Origin: an uncultured Bacteroidales bacterium | Lineage (GTDB): Bacteria > Bacteroidota > Bacteroidia > Bacteroidales > P3 | Length of the DNA: 64,000 nucleotides | Direction of reading: 5' to 3' | NCBI GenBank assembly: GCA_900314925.1 | Contig: OMXC01000011.1 | Span: forward strand, 1 to 64,000 | The notes under the pieces: generated by a model | The model's input: the letters and a program-made list of their open reading frames with translations, nothing else | Database searches by the model: none | What the model was told of the DNA's origin: nothing | Program-made: the position numbers and the translations under genes | Shown: positions 46,531-53,471 of the stretch, piece after piece | Layout of the letters: every line of letters begins with the position of its first letter | Numbering within the stretch: the stretch's first letter is position 1

Positions 46531-47985
46531 ATGGTATTAAAGGATATAATAAAAGGGATCGAGGCCGAGGTGCACGGCGCGGCGACGGTGGATGTCAAGG
46601 ACATTCAGTTTGACTCGCGCAAGGTGGCTGCCGGCACCCTCTTCGTGGCGCAGCGCGGCACCAAGGTCGACGGCCACACGTATATAGCCGGTGCTGTGGA
46701 GAAGGGCGCTGTGGCTGTGGTGTGCGAGGAGTTGCCGGAGAGCATGGCCGACGGCGTGGCCTATGTGAAGGTCGACGACAGCAGCAAGGCGCTGGGCCTG
46801 ATGGCTGCCAACTGGTACGGACACCCGTCGGAGAAGCTTACGCTCGTCGGCATCACAGGCACCAACGGCAAGACCACCACGGTGACCCTGCTGCACAGGA
46901 TGTTCCGCCAGCTGGGCTACCATGTGGGTCTGGTCTCGACGATAGTGAACAAGATTGACGAGGAAGAGATAGCCACAGGGCATACCACCCCCGACGCGCT
47001 GGAGCTCAACCAGCTGCTGCGTCGCATGGTGGATGCCGGCTGCAAGTACGCCTTCATGGAGGTCAGCAGTCATGCTGTGGTTCAGCAGCGCATTGCCGGT
47101 GTGCGTTTCGCCGGCGCCATCTTCAGCAATATCACACACGACCATCTTGACTTCCACAAGACCATGGCCAACTATATAGCCGCCAAAAAAGGGTTCTTCG
47201 ACGGTCTCGACAAGGAGGCGTGGGCGTTGGTGAATGTGGACGACAAGAACGGGCGCGTCATGGTGCAGAACACAAAAGCGAGTGTGCATACCTACGCCTT
47301 GCAGCACGACGCCGACATAGTGTGCAAGATAGTTGAGAATACCTTTGAAGGCATGCACCTGCAGATCGACGGCAAAGATATGTGGTGCCGCCTTGTGGGG
47401 CGTTTCAACGCCTACAACCTGCTGGCGATATACGGAGCCGCCGTGCTGTGCGGTGTCGACAAGGACGAGGCTCTGCGCATACTGAGCTCGCTGGAGGCTG
47501 CTCCGGGGCGTTTCCAGTATGTCAACGGGCGTGGCATCACAGGTATTGTGGATTATGCCCACACGCCTGACGCCTTGCAGAATGTGATCTCGACGATTGA
47601 CGGTATACGTCGCAAGACTCAGCAGCTTATCACCGTGGTGGGCTGTGGCGGCGACCGAGACCGCACCAAGCGGCCCGAGATGGCCAAGATCGCCGCCGAG
47701 GGAAGCGACAAGGTGGTGCTCACCAGCGACAATCCGCGTACCGAGAACCCCGACACCATCCTCGACGAGATGGAGGCCGGCCTCACGCCGCAGCAGCTGT
47801 CCCGCGTGGTGCGTATCACCGACCGCCGCCAGGCTATCCGCACGGCGTGCATGATGGCCAAGGAAGGTGACATTGTGCTGGTGGCTGGCAAGGGGCACGA
47901 GACCTACCAGGAGGTGAACGGAGTGAGACACCACTTCGACGACGTGGAAGAGGTGGGCAGAGAACTGGGGATGATTAAAAACTAA
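46531..47985 (+). CDS. murE: UDP-MurNAc-tripeptide synthetase (MurE)
   Basis: Adds the third residue to the peptidoglycan stem peptide. The 484-residue protein has the P-loop GITGTNGKTTTVTLL, TPDALELN, EVSSHAV, DHLDFHKTM, and a KGFF segment near the carbamylated-lysine site. It also has the substrate motif DNPR (SDNPRTENP), which marks enzymes adding meso-diaminopimelate rather than lysine. Full length. Confidence 0.95.
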   Translation: MVLKDIIKGIEAEVHGAATVDVKDIQFDSRKVAAGTLFVAQRGTKVDGHTYIAGAVEKGAVAVVCEELPESMADGVAYVKVDDSSKALGLMAANWYGHPSEKLTLVGITGTNGKTTTVTLLHRMFRQLGYHVGLVSTIVNKIDEEEIATGHTTPDALELNQLLRRMVDAGCKYAFMEVSSHAVVQQRIAGVRFAGAIFSNITHDHLDFHKTMANYIAAKKGFFDGLDKEAWALVNVDDKNGRVMVQNTKASVHTYALQHDADIVCKIVENTFEGMHLQIDGKDMWCRLVGRFNAYNLLAIYGAAVLCGVDKDEALRILSSLEAAPGRFQYVNGRGITGIVDYAHTPDALQNVISTIDGIRRKTQQLITVVGCGGDRDRTKRPEMAKIAAEGSDKVVLTSDNPRTENPDTILDEMEAGLTPQQLSRVVRITDRRQAIRTACMMAKEGDIVLVAGKGHETYQEVNGVRHHFDDVEEVGRELGMIKN

Positions 47986-47996
47986 AAATCAGGAAT

Positions 47997-49175
47997 ATGC
48001 TATACTATTTATTCGATTGGTTGGACAGAGCTTTTGATTTTCCGGGAGCAGGTGTGTTCCAATACATCTCGTTCAGGGCAGCGGCGAGCATAGTCACATC
48101 GCTGCTCATCATGCTTGTGCTTGGCAAGCCCTTCATCAAATGGATGAAGAACAAGCTTGGGATAATGGACGAGGTGCGCACTGAGCTCGGCCTTGAGGGA
48201 GCGGTGCAGAAGGCCAAGACCCCCACGATGGGCGGGTTGTTGATACTCACCGCCATAATAGTGCCGACACTGCTTTTTGCCAAGCTGGATAACATATATG
48301 TGCTTATCATGATAGGCACCACGTTGTGGATGGGCATGGTGGGATTCCTGGACGACTATCTGAAGAAGACCCGGGGAAAGGCTGGTCTGCCAGGTCGCTA
48401 CAAGGTCATAGGACAGGTGCTGCTCGGTCTCGCCGTGGGTTTGCTCATAACCTTCCACCCGGACATCAAAGAACCCCTGAAGACCACGATACCTTTTGTC
48501 AAGAACAACGAGTTTGACTATACGTGGCTGGTGTCGTGGATGGGCGACTGGGCTGTTGACTATGCGTGGATAATATATGTGGTCATAGTTATCTTCATCG
48601 TCACCGCTGTCAGCAATGCGTCGAACCTCACCGACGGTCTGGACGGCATAGCTACCGGTGTGGCTGCCGTCAACGGCGGTGCACTGGCAATACTGGCATG
48701 GGTCAGCGGCAACGTCATTATGTCGTCCTACCTGAATATCGTCTACCTGCCCAACATCGGAGAACTGGCGGTCTTCAGTACAGCCTTCGTAGGTGCCACG
48801 CTTGGATTCCTATGGTTCAACACGCACCCGGCGGAGATATTCATGGGAGACACAGGTTCGCTGGCCATTGGTGGTATCATAGCAGTCTTCGCCGTGCTCA
48901 TACGCAAGGAGCTATTGCTGCCGGTGCTCTGCGGCATCTATCTTGTCGAGGATCTGTCGGTGATAATACAGACCACTGCCTGCAAACGTTACCGCCGGAA
49001 GCACAAATTGCCCGCAGGGGTTCCTGTGCCGGTGGAGAAGAGGCCGCTGCTTATGTCGCCGCTGCACCATCACTTCCAGAAGAAGGGCATGGCCGAAGAG
49101 AAGGTGGTTATGCGCTTCGTCATCATCGCCATATTGCTGGCTATTTTCACATTGTCAACACTGAAACTGAGATAA
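47997..49175 (+). CDS. mraY: Phospho-MurNAc-pentapeptide transferase (MraY)
   Basis: Makes lipid I by moving phospho-MurNAc-pentapeptide to undecaprenyl phosphate. A 392-residue polytopic membrane protein with KAKTPTMGGLLIL, FLDDYLKK, SNASNLTDGLDGIA and MSPLHHHFQKKG, all MraY signatures carrying the catalytic Asp and His residues. Longer than the Escherichia enzyme because of an insertion around 165-190, as in other Bacteroidota. Its stop is one base before the next gene. Confidence 0.96.
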   Translation: MLYYLFDWLDRAFDFPGAGVFQYISFRAAASIVTSLLIMLVLGKPFIKWMKNKLGIMDEVRTELGLEGAVQKAKTPTMGGLLILTAIIVPTLLFAKLDNIYVLIMIGTTLWMGMVGFLDDYLKKTRGKAGLPGRYKVIGQVLLGLAVGLLITFHPDIKEPLKTTIPFVKNNEFDYTWLVSWMGDWAVDYAWIIYVVIVIFIVTAVSNASNLTDGLDGIATGVAAVNGGALAILAWVSGNVIMSSYLNIVYLPNIGELAVFSTAFVGATLGFLWFNTHPAEIFMGDTGSLAIGGIIAVFAVLIRKELLLPVLCGIYLVEDLSVIIQTTACKRYRRKHKLPAGVPVPVEKRPLLMSPLHHHFQKKGMAEEKVVMRFVIIAILLAIFTLSTLKLR

Positions 49176-49176
49176 A

Positions 49177-49707
49177 ATGACTATAGAGACACTTGCCAAA
49201 CAGGGTGTAGCACATACTGGCCTTGCCGGTATAGACACCTCACGTCTTAAAGCCATGCGCAATGCGTCGTTGCGTGCCTGCTTCAACCGGATAGAAGATA
49301 CTCGCTACAGACTTGAGTTTGTAGGCCGTATACTCGGCAGAGAGTACATAAACGATGCCGGTGCACGTACGGTAAATGCCACGTGGTATGCGTTGGAGAC
49401 CCTGCAGGGTGGCATAATATGGATAGTCTCCGGCACGGAGGTAGACACCGACTACAGCAAGCTTGTGCCTGCCGCACTGCGCAAGGTCAGGATGATGCTT
49501 GTGTTGGGACCGGCCGAACAGCTGAAAAGCACCTTTGCCGGTGTTGTGCCGAGCATTGTGGAATGCCAGTCGATGACGGATGCACTTCATAAAGCCTATC
49601 TGTATGATGCCACAGATGTGAAAGTGTTGTTCTCGCCGGCATGCAACGACGGTACGCCCACCAATGCGCTTGGCGAGGCTTTCCGCAACGAGGTTAATGA
49701 ATTGTAA
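49177..49707 (+). CDS. Stand-alone MurD C-terminal-domain remnant
   Basis: A 176-residue protein at the normal murD position between mraY and ftsW. It aligns only with the third domain of MurD: RYRLEFVGRILGREYINDA (MurD: HRLEFVG..NGV.YINDS), VNATWYALETLQGG, DTDYS and LLFSPAC-like VLFSPAC. The UDP-binding and ATPase domains are absent, with no room for them. In the DSKAT motif only Asp and Ala remain (DAGAR), so the lysine and threonine are lost. After SPAC the usual A-S-[LF]-D is replaced by NDGT. It is probably not a ligase; a structural or regulatory role is possible. The frame is intact and the gene is tightly packed. Confidence 0.82.
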   Translation: MTIETLAKQGVAHTGLAGIDTSRLKAMRNASLRACFNRIEDTRYRLEFVGRILGREYINDAGARTVNATWYALETLQGGIIWIVSGTEVDTDYSKLVPAALRKVRMMLVLGPAEQLKSTFAGVVPSIVECQSMTDALHKAYLYDATDVKVLFSPACNDGTPTNALGEAFRNEVNEL

Positions 49708-49719
49708 GACTGCATAGAT

Positions 49720-50940
49720 ATGAAGATGGCACGAATATTCAAGGGCGACAAGACAATCTGGGTGGTGTTTTTCCTGCTCAGTATTGTGTCGTTGCTGGCA
49801 GTTTACAGCTCCATAGGACTGTATGCCTACACGGCGTTCGCCAGCAAATCGCCGACGTCGCTGTTTCTGCGCCATCTGCTTATAGTTGTGGTGACTTATG
49901 TCGTTGTGGCATTAATGTCGCATGTCAACTACCGATACTTCTCGCGTTTTGCCGTGCTCGGCTACTGGGCGGCGATAGTGTTGCTCGTGATAATGCTGGC
50001 CCTGAACCAAGGCCGCTGGGTGCGCATACCTGTTATCGGCCAGTTCCAGCCGTCGGAGATTGCCAAGGTCGTGCTGATAATCTTTGTGGCAAGACTTCTC
50101 GCCTTGAAGAAAGAACATGTCGGAGAGCTTGGGACTTTCCTGATGCTGCTGATATACATAGCAGCTATCGCCATACTGGTGTTGCCTGAGAATTTCTCTA
50201 CGGCGGCGTTGATATTCCTGTCGGCGTATCTTGTGATGTATTTTGGCGGAGTGAACAAGAAATACTGGTGGCGTCTGTTCCTGGTGGGTATGGTGGCTGT
50301 CGTCGCTTTCCTTGCAATAAGTTATTACAAGTATGAGAAGTCGATGCTCAGCACTGGGTCGGAGACAGAGATGGTCATTGAACGCCAGGAGACATGGGGT
50401 CACAGGGTGTACTCGTGGATTAATCCGCAACCCAACGAGCTGACTCAGGAGAATATGTCGAGGATGGCGATAGCGCGAGGCGGCATAGCCCGTTTCGGGG
50501 TAGGCACCACCGTGCATGCGCGATTGATGACGCAGGCTCATAATGACTTTATTTATGCCATCATAATAGAAGAGTCTGGAATGGTAGGAGGTTTGTTTGT
50601 ATTTGCCCTGTATAGCGTCTTCTTCTTCCGTTGCATACGTGTTGCACGGAGGTGCAAAGGTCCGTTCGGGGCTCTCACTGTTGCCGGCCTTGGTACCATG
50701 ATATACCTGCAAGCGTTGGTGAATATGAGTGTGGCGGTAGGAGTGCTGCCGGTTACAGGCCAGACGTTGCCGTTTATCAGCTATGGTGGTACGGCGTACC
50801 TGTTCCTTGGTTGTGCATTGGGTGTGATTCAGTCTGTTGCCGCCGATGTCTATGCGCACGAAAAGACCGGCGACGAACCGCTGCCAGATGTGGGGCCGGA
50901 AATGATTGAGGCAACAGAACCAGCAAATGAAAAGAAATAG
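49720..50940 (+). CDS. ftsW: FtsW, SEDS septal glycosyltransferase
   Basis: Polymerises lipid II at the division site with FtsI. A 406-residue polytopic membrane protein. SEDS motifs: GQFQPSEIAKVVLIIF, LPENFSTAALI, the loop IARGGIARFGVGTT, AHNDFIYAIIIEESG, and LPFISYGGTAYL. The C-terminal 40 residues are hydrophilic and acidic. It is separated from the MurD remnant by 12 bp. Confidence 0.95.
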   Translation: MKMARIFKGDKTIWVVFFLLSIVSLLAVYSSIGLYAYTAFASKSPTSLFLRHLLIVVVTYVVVALMSHVNYRYFSRFAVLGYWAAIVLLVIMLALNQGRWVRIPVIGQFQPSEIAKVVLIIFVARLLALKKEHVGELGTFLMLLIYIAAIAILVLPENFSTAALIFLSAYLVMYFGGVNKKYWWRLFLVGMVAVVAFLAISYYKYEKSMLSTGSETEMVIERQETWGHRVYSWINPQPNELTQENMSRMAIARGGIARFGVGTTVHARLMTQAHNDFIYAIIIEESGMVGGLFVFALYSVFFFRCIRVARRCKGPFGALTVAGLGTMIYLQALVNMSVAVGVLPVTGQTLPFISYGGTAYLFLGCALGVIQSVAADVYAHEKTGDEPLPDVGPEMIEATEPANEKK

Positions 50941-50952
50941 AGAAATAGATAT

Positions 50953-52059
50953 ATGAAAGCAATAATCAGTGGAGGAGGAAGCGGTGGACATATATTCCCC
51001 GCAGTAGCAATTGCCGGAGCTCTTAAGCGTCGCCATCCGGACGTCGATATACTGTTCATCGGCGCTGAAGGACGTATGGAGATGGAAAAGGTGCCAGCTG
51101 CCGGCTATAAGATTGAGGGTCTGCCGATAGCTGGGCTGCAGCGCAAGTTGACGCTGGAGAATATCGTCAAAAACCTGCAGTTGCCATTCAAAATGCTCAA
51201 GAGCCGCAGAAAGGTGAAAGACATTCTCAGGAGCTTTGCCCCAGATATTGTTGTCGGTGTCGGTGGCTTTGCCAGTGAACCCACTCTTAAGGCCGCCGCT
51301 GACATGGGTTATCCCACTCTGCTGCAGGAACAGAACTCGTATGCTGGGTTGACCAATAAGATGCTCGCACGCAATGCCAAGAAGATATGTGTGGCATACG
51401 AAGGAATGGATCGCTTTTTCCCAAAGGACAAGATAATCTTCACCGGCAATCCCGTAAGGGGAGACATAGAGCAGATGAATGCGACCCGCGAAGAAGGCTG
51501 TGAGATGTTCGGTCTCAATCCAGAGGGAAGGGTGTTGCTTTCTGTCGGCGGCAGTCTTGGTGCTAGAAGCATCAATCAGATGATAATAAGCCACCTTCAC
51601 TTTTTCAAGGAAAACCGTATTCAGCTTGTGTGGCAGACGGGGCGTTGGATGTATGAAGAAGCGGTGTCTGCGGTGAAGAGAGCCAATGTCGAGGACTGGG
51701 TAAAAGTCCATCAGTTCATAAGCCGTATGGATATGGCTTATGCTGCTGCCGATGTTGTCATCTCCCGAGCCGGAGCCATTGCCATCTCTGAGCTGTGTAT
51801 TGTTGGGAAGCCTGTGGTGTTGATACCGTCGCCCAATGTCGCAGAAGACCATCAGACAAAGAATGCCTTGGCCTTGGTTGACAGGGGCGCTGCCGTCATG
51901 GTGCGTGATGCAGAGTGTGATGCGCTGTGCTTGCCGCAAGTGCAGGAACTTTTTGAGAATGCCGCGCATCGGGAGGCTATGAGTGTGGCGATAAAGAAAA
52001 TGGCAGTATATGGAGCTGCCGACAAGATTGTTGACCAGATAGACAAGATAGTGGGATGA
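50953..52059 (+). CDS. murG: UDP-GlcNAc:lipid I N-acetylglucosaminyltransferase
   Basis: Converts lipid I to lipid II. The 368-residue protein has the N-terminal glycine-rich SGGGSGGHIFPAVAIA, GVGGFASEPTL, LLQEQNSYAG, FTGNPVR, GGSLGARSIN, and the sugar-nucleotide-binding VISRAGAIAISEL with PNVAEDHQTKNA. Full length. The stop overlaps the murC ATG by 4 bp. Confidence 0.96.
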   Translation: MKAIISGGGSGGHIFPAVAIAGALKRRHPDVDILFIGAEGRMEMEKVPAAGYKIEGLPIAGLQRKLTLENIVKNLQLPFKMLKSRRKVKDILRSFAPDIVVGVGGFASEPTLKAAADMGYPTLLQEQNSYAGLTNKMLARNAKKICVAYEGMDRFFPKDKIIFTGNPVRGDIEQMNATREEGCEMFGLNPEGRVLLSVGGSLGARSINQMIISHLHFFKENRIQLVWQTGRWMYEEAVSAVKRANVEDWVKVHQFISRMDMAYAAADVVISRAGAIAISELCIVGKPVVLIPSPNVAEDHQTKNALALVDRGAAVMVRDAECDALCLPQVQELFENAAHREAMSVAIKKMAVYGAADKIVDQIDKIVG

Positions 52060-53471
52060 ACTACTACTTTTTAGGCATAGGAGGCATAGGCATGAGTGCG
52101 CTGGCACGCTTCTTCAAACAGAGGGGCGATAATGTCAGCGGCTATGACCGTACGCAGTCACCGCTTACCGAGGAATTGGAGAAAGAGGGAATAGGTGTCC
52201 ATTATTGTGACGCCCCGGCCCTCATACCTGATGATATTGACCGGGTTATATATACTCCTGCAATTCCGCAAGATCTGCAAGAGTTTGTCGTGCTGCAAGA
52301 GCGTGGCGTGAAGATGGAGAAACGTTCCAAGGTTCTCGGTGAGCTGACGCGCGGAAAAAAATGCATCGCTGTAGCAGGCAGCCATGGCAAAACAACCACG
52401 AGTACGCTTATAGCGCACCTGTTGAGCCATACAGGCATTGGCTGTACGGCGTTCCTTGGAGGCATTAGCAAGAACTTTGGCAGCAACCTTCATGTTGATA
52501 ATAAGAGCGAGTATGTTGTTGTGGAAGCAGACGAGTATGACCGCTCGTTCCTTCAACTGTATCCGCATTATGCTGTTATTACCGCAACTGACCCGGATCA
52601 CCTAGATATATATGGCACCCATGAAGCAATGCTTGAGGCCTATGTCCAGTTTGCCAACCAATCCGATGCAGACGGGAAATTGTTCCTTAAGCAGGGCGTC
52701 TTTACGACATCTGATGGAGAATTGTATGGTCACCATCACGATGATGATGAGCATGACGAACACTCGCATGAAGGCTTTGACTTCATAAAAAGGCCATACG
52801 CCGTTTATACAGCACATGGCGTTGATGCTGATTACTATGCAATAAATGTTCGAGCATATAACGGCAACATTTTCTTTGACATGCGCACGCCGGAGGGGGT
52901 GTTGTATGACTTGGAGCTTGATGGGACGGCCCTTTTCAATGTGGAAAATGCTGTTGCGGCTTCAGCCGTGGCTTTGAGTTGCGGTGTCGACCAATACCAG
53001 CTCCGTAGTGGACTGAAGAGTTTTGCCGGAGTGCGTCGGCGTTTTGACTATCGTATCAAGGAGAAAAACCTTGTATATATTGACGACTATGCCCACCACC
53101 CTCAAGAGATTGCATCTACCATTGAGTCGGTGCGGTTCCTGTATCCCGGCAAGCGAGTTGTGGGAATATTCCAGCCGCACTTGTACAGTCGAACGCGTGA
53201 TTTCGCCGATGAATTTGCTTCCGTGTTGCAGAGTCTTGACGAGATAATCATGATGCCCATCTATCCAGCGCGCGAGAAGCCCATTCTGGGAGTGACATCA
53301 AGCATGGTGCTGCGAAAGATGGACAGCATGTCGAAGTATCTGTGTACCGCCGACCAGGTGTTGGAATTGGTACCGGCCCTGTGCCCCGATATTGTGCTTT
53401 CGCTCGGAGCCGGTGATATCGACCGCCTTGTGCCGCGTCTTGAAGAAACGTTAAGAGAACAGATGTTGTAA
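52056..53471 (+). CDS. murC: UDP-MurNAc:L-alanine ligase (MurC)
   Basis: Adds the first stem-peptide residue. The 471-residue protein has FLGIGGIGMSALARFF, P-loop AGSHGKTTTSTLIAHLL, EADEYDRSFLQL, DPDHLDIY, FNVENAVAASAVAL and DDYAHHPQEI. All three Mur ligase domains are present, unlike its MurD neighbour. An unusual His/Asp/Glu-rich stretch (residues 226-239, HHHDDDEHDEHSHE) sits in the central domain. Confidence 0.95.
   Translation: MNYYFLGIGGIGMSALARFFKQRGDNVSGYDRTQSPLTEELEKEGIGVHYCDAPALIPDDIDRVIYTPAIPQDLQEFVVLQERGVKMEKRSKVLGELTRGKKCIAVAGSHGKTTTSTLIAHLLSHTGIGCTAFLGGISKNFGSNLHVDNKSEYVVVEADEYDRSFLQLYPHYAVITATDPDHLDIYGTHEAMLEAYVQFANQSDADGKLFLKQGVFTTSDGELYGHHHDDDEHDEHSHEGFDFIKRPYAVYTAHGVDADYYAINVRAYNGNIFFDMRTPEGVLYDLELDGTALFNVENAVAASAVALSCGVDQYQLRSGLKSFAGVRRRFDYRIKEKNLVYIDDYAHHPQEIASTIESVRFLYPGKRVVGIFQPHLYSRTRDFADEFASVLQSLDEIIMMPIYPAREKPILGVTSSMVLRKMDSMSKYLCTADQVLELVPALCPDIVLSLGAGDIDRLVPRLEETLREQML

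Follow-up and report, generated by a model that had tools for sequence, protein, structure and literature searches.

The window (the whole stretch of DNA analysed, 64,000 nucleotides) carries a dcw cluster in which a 176-codon gene, running from an ATG to a TAA, stands between mraY and ftsW. The features of the locus are as follows:

46531..53471, + strand, dcw context murE-mraY-[murD C-domain]-ftsW-murG-murC, the order kept in other short-form loci
47997..49175, + strand, mraY, directly upstream with a gap of 1 base, stop codon TAA
49177..49707, + strand, short murD gene of 176 codons for a stand-alone MurD C-terminal domain, flanked by mraY and ftsW
49177..49224, + strand, N-terminal stub, residues 1-16 (MTIETLAKQG...), low model confidence
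49237..49704, + strand, folded MurD domain 3, residues 21-176 (AlphaFold model and structure comparison)
49720..50940, + strand, ftsW, downstream of the short murD with a gap of 12 bases

The three-domain architecture of MurD is absent from this gene; the upstream bases belong to mraY, and neither a UDP-binding domain, nor an ATPase domain, nor a P-loop is encoded. A comparison of the product (P0001) with the TIGR01087 model gave a match to positions 292-419 only (68.8 bits against a whole-protein cut-off of 211.95; E 4.5e-19), which, together with the mraY end at 49175 and the ATG at 49177, bears out the first-pass annotation of the locus as a 176-codon frame directly following mraY and lacking the first two MurD domains. 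The match to the Pfam Mur_ligase_C family was sub-threshold (25 bits vs. a cut-off of 28.4), and a phmmer search against the PDB returned matches with significant E-values to MurD C-domains only (3lk7, E 1.8e-08). AlphaFold2 modelling with 24 natural short forms as input predicted a structure (pLDDT 85.6, pTM 0.74) that superposes on MurD domain 3, in agreement with the fold that the annotation had proposed for comparison; the best PDB matches of the model were all MurD domain 3, with a TM of the query mostly 0.65-0.70. Both the homology and the fold are, accordingly, those of the MurD C-terminal domain. Domain 3 of E. coli MurD comprises residues 300-437 (PMC4816537), so the window protein comprises domain 3 preceded by a short segment of the domain 2 end, and its stub is homologous to the internal segment M-T-I/L-E-x-L-A-x-Q-G-K-H-N of full-length Bacteroidota MurD.

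The alignments show the gene to be, as far as homology can tell, a C-terminal-domain relic of the canonical dcw murD and not of MurD2; derivation from MurD2 was ruled out, since the short form aligns with dcw MurD and shares its W-Y/W motifs. A hidden frameshift or assembly error, looked for as a possible cause of the missing domains, was ruled out as well: 35 of the 36 congeners carry the same gene in separate assemblies, and the one without it is an 81%-complete assembly.

Residue retention and selection in the short protein

The positions of the short protein that correspond to functional residues of E. coli MurD, and one further conserved pair, are listed below:

49309..49311, + strand, R45, equivalent of Arg302 (the ADP phosphate 'handle'), R or K in nearly all short forms
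49354..49356, + strand, D60, equivalent of Asp317, invariant in 66/66 representative short forms
49360..49368, + strand, lost DSKAT positions G62 (K319 equivalent) and R64 (T321 equivalent), from the alignment
49384..49389, + strand, W70-Y71, a Bacteroidota-type pair still present after Glu-site loss
49441..49443, + strand, V89, equivalent of the Glu-recognition lysine K348, lost in 34/34 short forms of the genus and 25/32 others
49648..49650, + strand, D158, equivalent of S415, lost, from the alignment

The MurD C-domain motifs quoted in the first-pass annotation are present, and the lysine and threonine of DSKAT are changed as it had stated (G62, R64), as is S415 (to D); altogether, A, G, R, V and D stand at the positions of E. 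coli S318, K319, T321, K348 and S415, and none of the Glu/ADP-site residues K319, T321, K348 and S415 is kept in the window protein. The assignment of the DSKAT lysine as a substrate contact was mistaken: K319 lies near ADP, and Glu recognition by MurD is attributed to D182, K348, A414 and L416 (PMC8788868).

A residue comparison of 66 representative short forms (34 in the genus and 32 outside it) with 88 full-length representatives shows uneven loss. The lysine at the K348 position, found in 88/88 full-length proteins, is kept in 7/32 short forms outside the genus and 0/34 within it; the corresponding figures are 88/88, 23/32 and 0/34 for K319, 88/88, 20/32 and 1/34 for T321, and 88/88, 23/32 and 3/34 for S415. 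The D317 equivalent, which we take to be the acidic ribose-contact residue of the Mur ligase C-domain, is invariant (32/32 and 34/34), the R302 equivalent is R or K in 65/66 short forms, and W82, V104, E47 and F169 are near invariant. In known enzymes, the C-domain provides R302 as a contact to the ADP phosphate (PMC4816537) and, in Mur ligases, an acidic residue as a contact to the ATP ribose (PMC6085368). Sequence entropy is higher in short forms than in full MurD. Among the short forms, the residues that contact Glu are the first to decay, whereas the core of the fold and the Arg and Asp facing the nucleotide persist. This uneven retention indicates that Glu binding was surrendered and that the fold and the nucleotide-facing edge were retained; the kept Arg and Asp suggest that the short protein may still come into contact with a nucleotide, or with the surface of the ATP domain in a different Mur ligase. 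The W70-Y71 pair comprises candidate structural or interface residues.

The NG86 dN/dS between the window gene and its closest relative is 0.061, and for other pairs with dS under about 1.2 it is mostly 0.05-0.3, the values coming, with a few exceptions, from saturated pairs; in the same pairs, the short gene has a ratio similar to that of ftsW and above that of mraY. In the 33 sequences measured, the gene keeps 176-181 codons and no internal stops, so neither the frame loss nor the relaxed selection expected of a pseudogene is seen. Judged by these ratios and the alignment, the short protein is shown to have lost its Glu-binding residues and yet to evolve under purifying selection; the frame is kept under selection, as the first-pass annotation had supposed, and simple decay does not describe it.

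The MurD2-type ligase, the epimerase candidate and their distribution

The genome of the window organism (G000; 2.4 Mb, 98.6% complete) contains one full-length MurD-family ligase above the cut-off, at C21:7741-8964, which answers the search for such a gene proposed earlier. The genes concerned are:

L008:6305-8991 (G000:C21), murL-like and murD2-like pair, the genes overlapping by 22 bases
L008:7699-8991 (C21), MurD2-type ligase, 430 aa, TIGR01087 260 bits

The MurD2/MurL route of Xanthomonas was reportedly described by Feng et al. in 2017. Xanthomonas MurD2 attaches L-Glu, which MurL then epimerises, and E197 and R358 of X. oryzae MurD2 (corresponding to D182 and K348 of E. coli MurD) set the specificity for L-Glu (PMC8788868). 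The C21 ligase is full length and has E and R at these positions (in the EHLD and GGFDRG motifs), as do MurL-linked MurD2s in general (E in 35/35 and R in 36/36 scored), in contrast to the D and K of the dcw MurDs in the same search (9/9). The open reading frame overlapping murD2 matches NF041275 (246 bits, E 4.6e-73) under the 700-bit equivalog cut-off; as this model is Xanthomonadales-specific by name, the epimerase candidate is termed MurL-like. Glutamate racemase (MurI) was found neither in this genome nor in the 36 congeners, and no D-amino-acid transaminase scored above the cut-off in the window genome. From the E and R residues, the absence of MurI and the lack of a transaminase above the cut-off, we conclude that this organism very probably carries out its D-Glu step with MurD2 and the MurL-like epimerase. 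Of the two sources of D-Glu addition envisaged in the first-pass annotation, a full MurD elsewhere or another ligase, the second has stood, in the form of a MurD2-type enzyme, predicted to add L-Glu, paired with a MurL-type epimerase and no MurI. In four congeners (G005, G020, G032, G033), a single open frame of 890-923 aa contains both the MurL and the MurD2 match, an apparent fusion.

MurL is present in most congeners. The few that lack a full MurL match mostly have a completeness of 75-82%, with the exceptions of G012 (92%) and G018 (96%), and no full-length MurD2 was found in these two either. A wider survey covered 148 Bacteroidales genomes with completeness >=90%; the genomes are MAG-rich and the absence calls depend on completeness. 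MurL was found in 50 of them and MurI above the cut-off in 93, with no overlap (Fisher p 3.9e-34, a value that ignores kinship). The short MurD occurs in 24 genomes (23 with MurL, one without, none with MurI), and the full-length dcw MurD in 22 genomes with MurL and 94 without it. Searching contigs added 10 short-form genomes, all with MurL, and no short form was detected among 147 Bacteroidota genomes outside Bacteroidales. Short-form loci with enough flank have the murE-mraY-short-ftsW-murG order on single contigs. The dcw murD apparently missing from G104 reflects a contig edge; G056, G128 and G175 were ambiguous and were left out, as were the short matches of G042, G155 and G197 (contig cuts or ambiguous). 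Hence, as far as genome comparison goes, the phenomenon is not unique to the window genome: the short form, for which a check in relatives had been proposed, is common in the genus and recurs across MurL-bearing Bacteroidales lineages. The MurL/MurD2 route itself seems common in Bacteroidales, with about a third of the sampled genomes predicted to use it. A search of the open-access literature yielded neither a description of an isolated MurD C-domain nor one of MurL in Bacteroidota.

In the 22 MurL-bearing genomes that keep a full-length dcw MurD, the takeover by MurL and MurD2 has evidently not always rendered MurD dispensable; such genomes, lacking MurI (e.g., G048, G094, G134, G199), appear to represent an intermediate stage or else a different outcome. 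Dead catalytic residues, which would point to ligase loss as the first step, were sought in these proteins, and the motifs were intact where checked. A separate case is G051 (98% complete), with a short MurD in its dcw cluster at L153 (G051:C4:299557-300057) and none of MurD, MurD2, MurL and MurI detected; it represents either an assembly gap or a third solution of the D-Glu step.

Recurrent truncation and a possible internal start

A tree of concatenated MurE, MraY, MurG and MurC from 73 loci was built by a quick search with SH-aLRT support only, the direction of change being left unfixed. The distribution of short and full forms on it requires 11 changes, 8 of which are forced by the starred branches, and the families f27, f35 and f49 contain one short-form and one full-form species each. 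At least eight forced switches mean that truncation recurred; this tree shows it for 8 or more lineages, mostly at the same internal Met. The switch count by itself is also compatible with regain of the full form by transfer, and if domain loss is irreversible, it implies many independent truncations. Most short genes start at the Met of M-(T/S)-(I/L)-x-x-L-A-x-Q-G-(K/R)-H-N, which is internal in full-length MurD. An 865-aa frame in G089, considered as a fusion clue to a partner, proved to be merely an open frame overlapping mraY, and a supposed in-frame domain-2 relic 5' of the short gene in G018 and G012 was not real. In G122, murE (L216:1824-3291) consists of two overlapping frames, owing to a frameshift or a sequencing error.

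The internal Met before the GKHN motif is present in 21/21 MurL-bearing and 44/50 MurI-bearing full-length genes. Synonymous permutation within each gene, the amino-acid sequence being fixed, indicated that the A/T bias of the whole gene is highest in the codons surrounding it, which also rank with the least structured stretches (53 non-redundant genes). In MurL-bearing genomes the site ranks 5/356 for AT and 2/118 for folding; in MurI-bearing genomes the AT rank is 1/356 with a small effect, and there is no folding effect. The effect is larger in the former (p 0.028 for AT and 0.0016 for folding, kinship ignored), and the equivalent murE boundary shows no such effect (ranks 259/356 and 91/118). 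The loci L078, L209 and L211 exemplify the A/T-rich, weakly structured context. Perhaps Bacteroidota murD is a dual-product gene, in which internal initiation before G-K-H-N would give a functional C-domain isoform, the long product being deleted after the MurL/MurD2 takeover and the isoform surviving as a gene of its own; this can be put forward as a tentative suggestion, and we rather doubt it. A domain-boundary codon effect specific to murD is a possible alternative to the internal start.

Retention of the C-terminal domain and comparison with known systems

It is reasonably probable that the MurL/MurD2 takeover made canonical MurD redundant and that the C-domain of the latter persisted in a non-catalytic capacity, as a partner of the Mur proteins or the divisome. 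The murL-murD2 pair would have been gained first and murI lost afterwards, D-Glu ligation giving way to ligation of L-Glu by MurD2 followed by MurL epimerisation. With ligation moved to MurD2/MurL, the N-terminal and ATPase domains would have become dispensable, and the first two domains of MurD would have been lost while the third was kept. The C-domain may have been retained for a separate, non-catalytic task that it already had in full-length MurD, most likely docking in the cytoplasmic Mur complex (MurG, MraY, MreB, FtsW), which would now be provided by a small stand-alone protein from the dcw operon. A non-catalytic function is the simplest account of why the third domain alone was retained so often. 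Among published precedents, the ligases MurD, MurE and MurF of T. maritima are binding partners of MurG, and Mur ligases have MreB and MurG as their scaffolds (PMC6420597, PMC4929429). The origin of the gene and the selection on it are much firmer than the docking role, which we infer.

The near confinement of the short form to MurL/MurD2 genomes, along with the kept R302 and D317 equivalents, is also what might be expected of a trans-acting subunit or regulator that binds MurD2 and/or MurL, for example at the face of the ATP cleft, and tunes or tethers them; however, half of the scorable MurL-bearing genomes have a full MurD and no short form, MurD2 is already full length, and the short gene remains in the dcw operon, away from murL-murD2, all of which makes such a role unlikely. 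The same two residues could serve an amino-acid or nucleotide sensor, a domain binding its ligand and signalling precursor supply to division, but the Glu-recognition residues are lost in the genus and no adjoining effector domain or coupled regulator is seen, so that this role appears decidedly improbable.

Slightly less credible again is a role of the nucleic acid, the peptide being irrelevant and the 3' part of murD being kept for ftsW spacing, a promoter or translational coupling: tight packing and the lower structure near the start would fit it, but a dN/dS well below 1, the constant length without internal stops and the near invariance of D60, W82, V104 and F169 point to selection on the protein. 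A decaying pseudogene or an assembly artefact can be given hardly any weight, for the loss of two domains and the Glu site and the entropy of the short forms above that of full MurD are set against the intact gene in congeners from separate assemblies, purifying selection and recurrence in many families.

If the C-domain was indeed kept as a non-catalytic partner, the short genes represent a natural domain-deletion experiment with many repeats, which stripped an essential cell-wall enzyme of its catalytic parts and left one domain, and they offer testable evidence for a role of MurD beyond catalysis in the Mur multi-enzyme complex, a long-debated assembly. The MurL/MurD2 route, so far reported from proteobacteria and actinobacteria, is apparently common in gut and environmental Bacteroidales, which is relevant to D-Glu metabolism and to the choice of narrow-spectrum targets.

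Several known systems resemble parts of this arrangement. The C-terminal isoforms of SctQ/HrcQ-type proteins, which arise from internal starts (PMC4295842, PMC8553256), offer a works-like analogy to a dual-product murD; they belong to an unrelated protein family, and internal initiation in murD is a sequence-based proposal. Canonical MurD shares with the short gene the C-domain homology and fold, the dcw position and the R302/D317 equivalents, but it has the UDP-binding and ATPase domains, the P-loop and K319/T321/K348/S415. The MurD2/MurL system of Xanthomonas is similar in its adjacent, overlapping or fused gene pair, the E and R residues and the absence of MurI; unlike there, the MurL homologue here scores far under the Xanthomonadales cut-off, and no retained MurD C-domain has been described in that system. 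The cited reviews of MurD2/MurL (including PMC8788868) name Gamma- and Alphaproteobacteria as well as actinobacteria but do not include Bacteroidota. MurT of the MurT/GatD pair differs from the short protein in being an enzyme with an ATPase domain, and its partner GatD has no known counterpart here; like the short protein, MurT has a MurD-like C-terminal domain, and part of the surface of this domain, formed by its helices, contacts GatD (PMC6085368).
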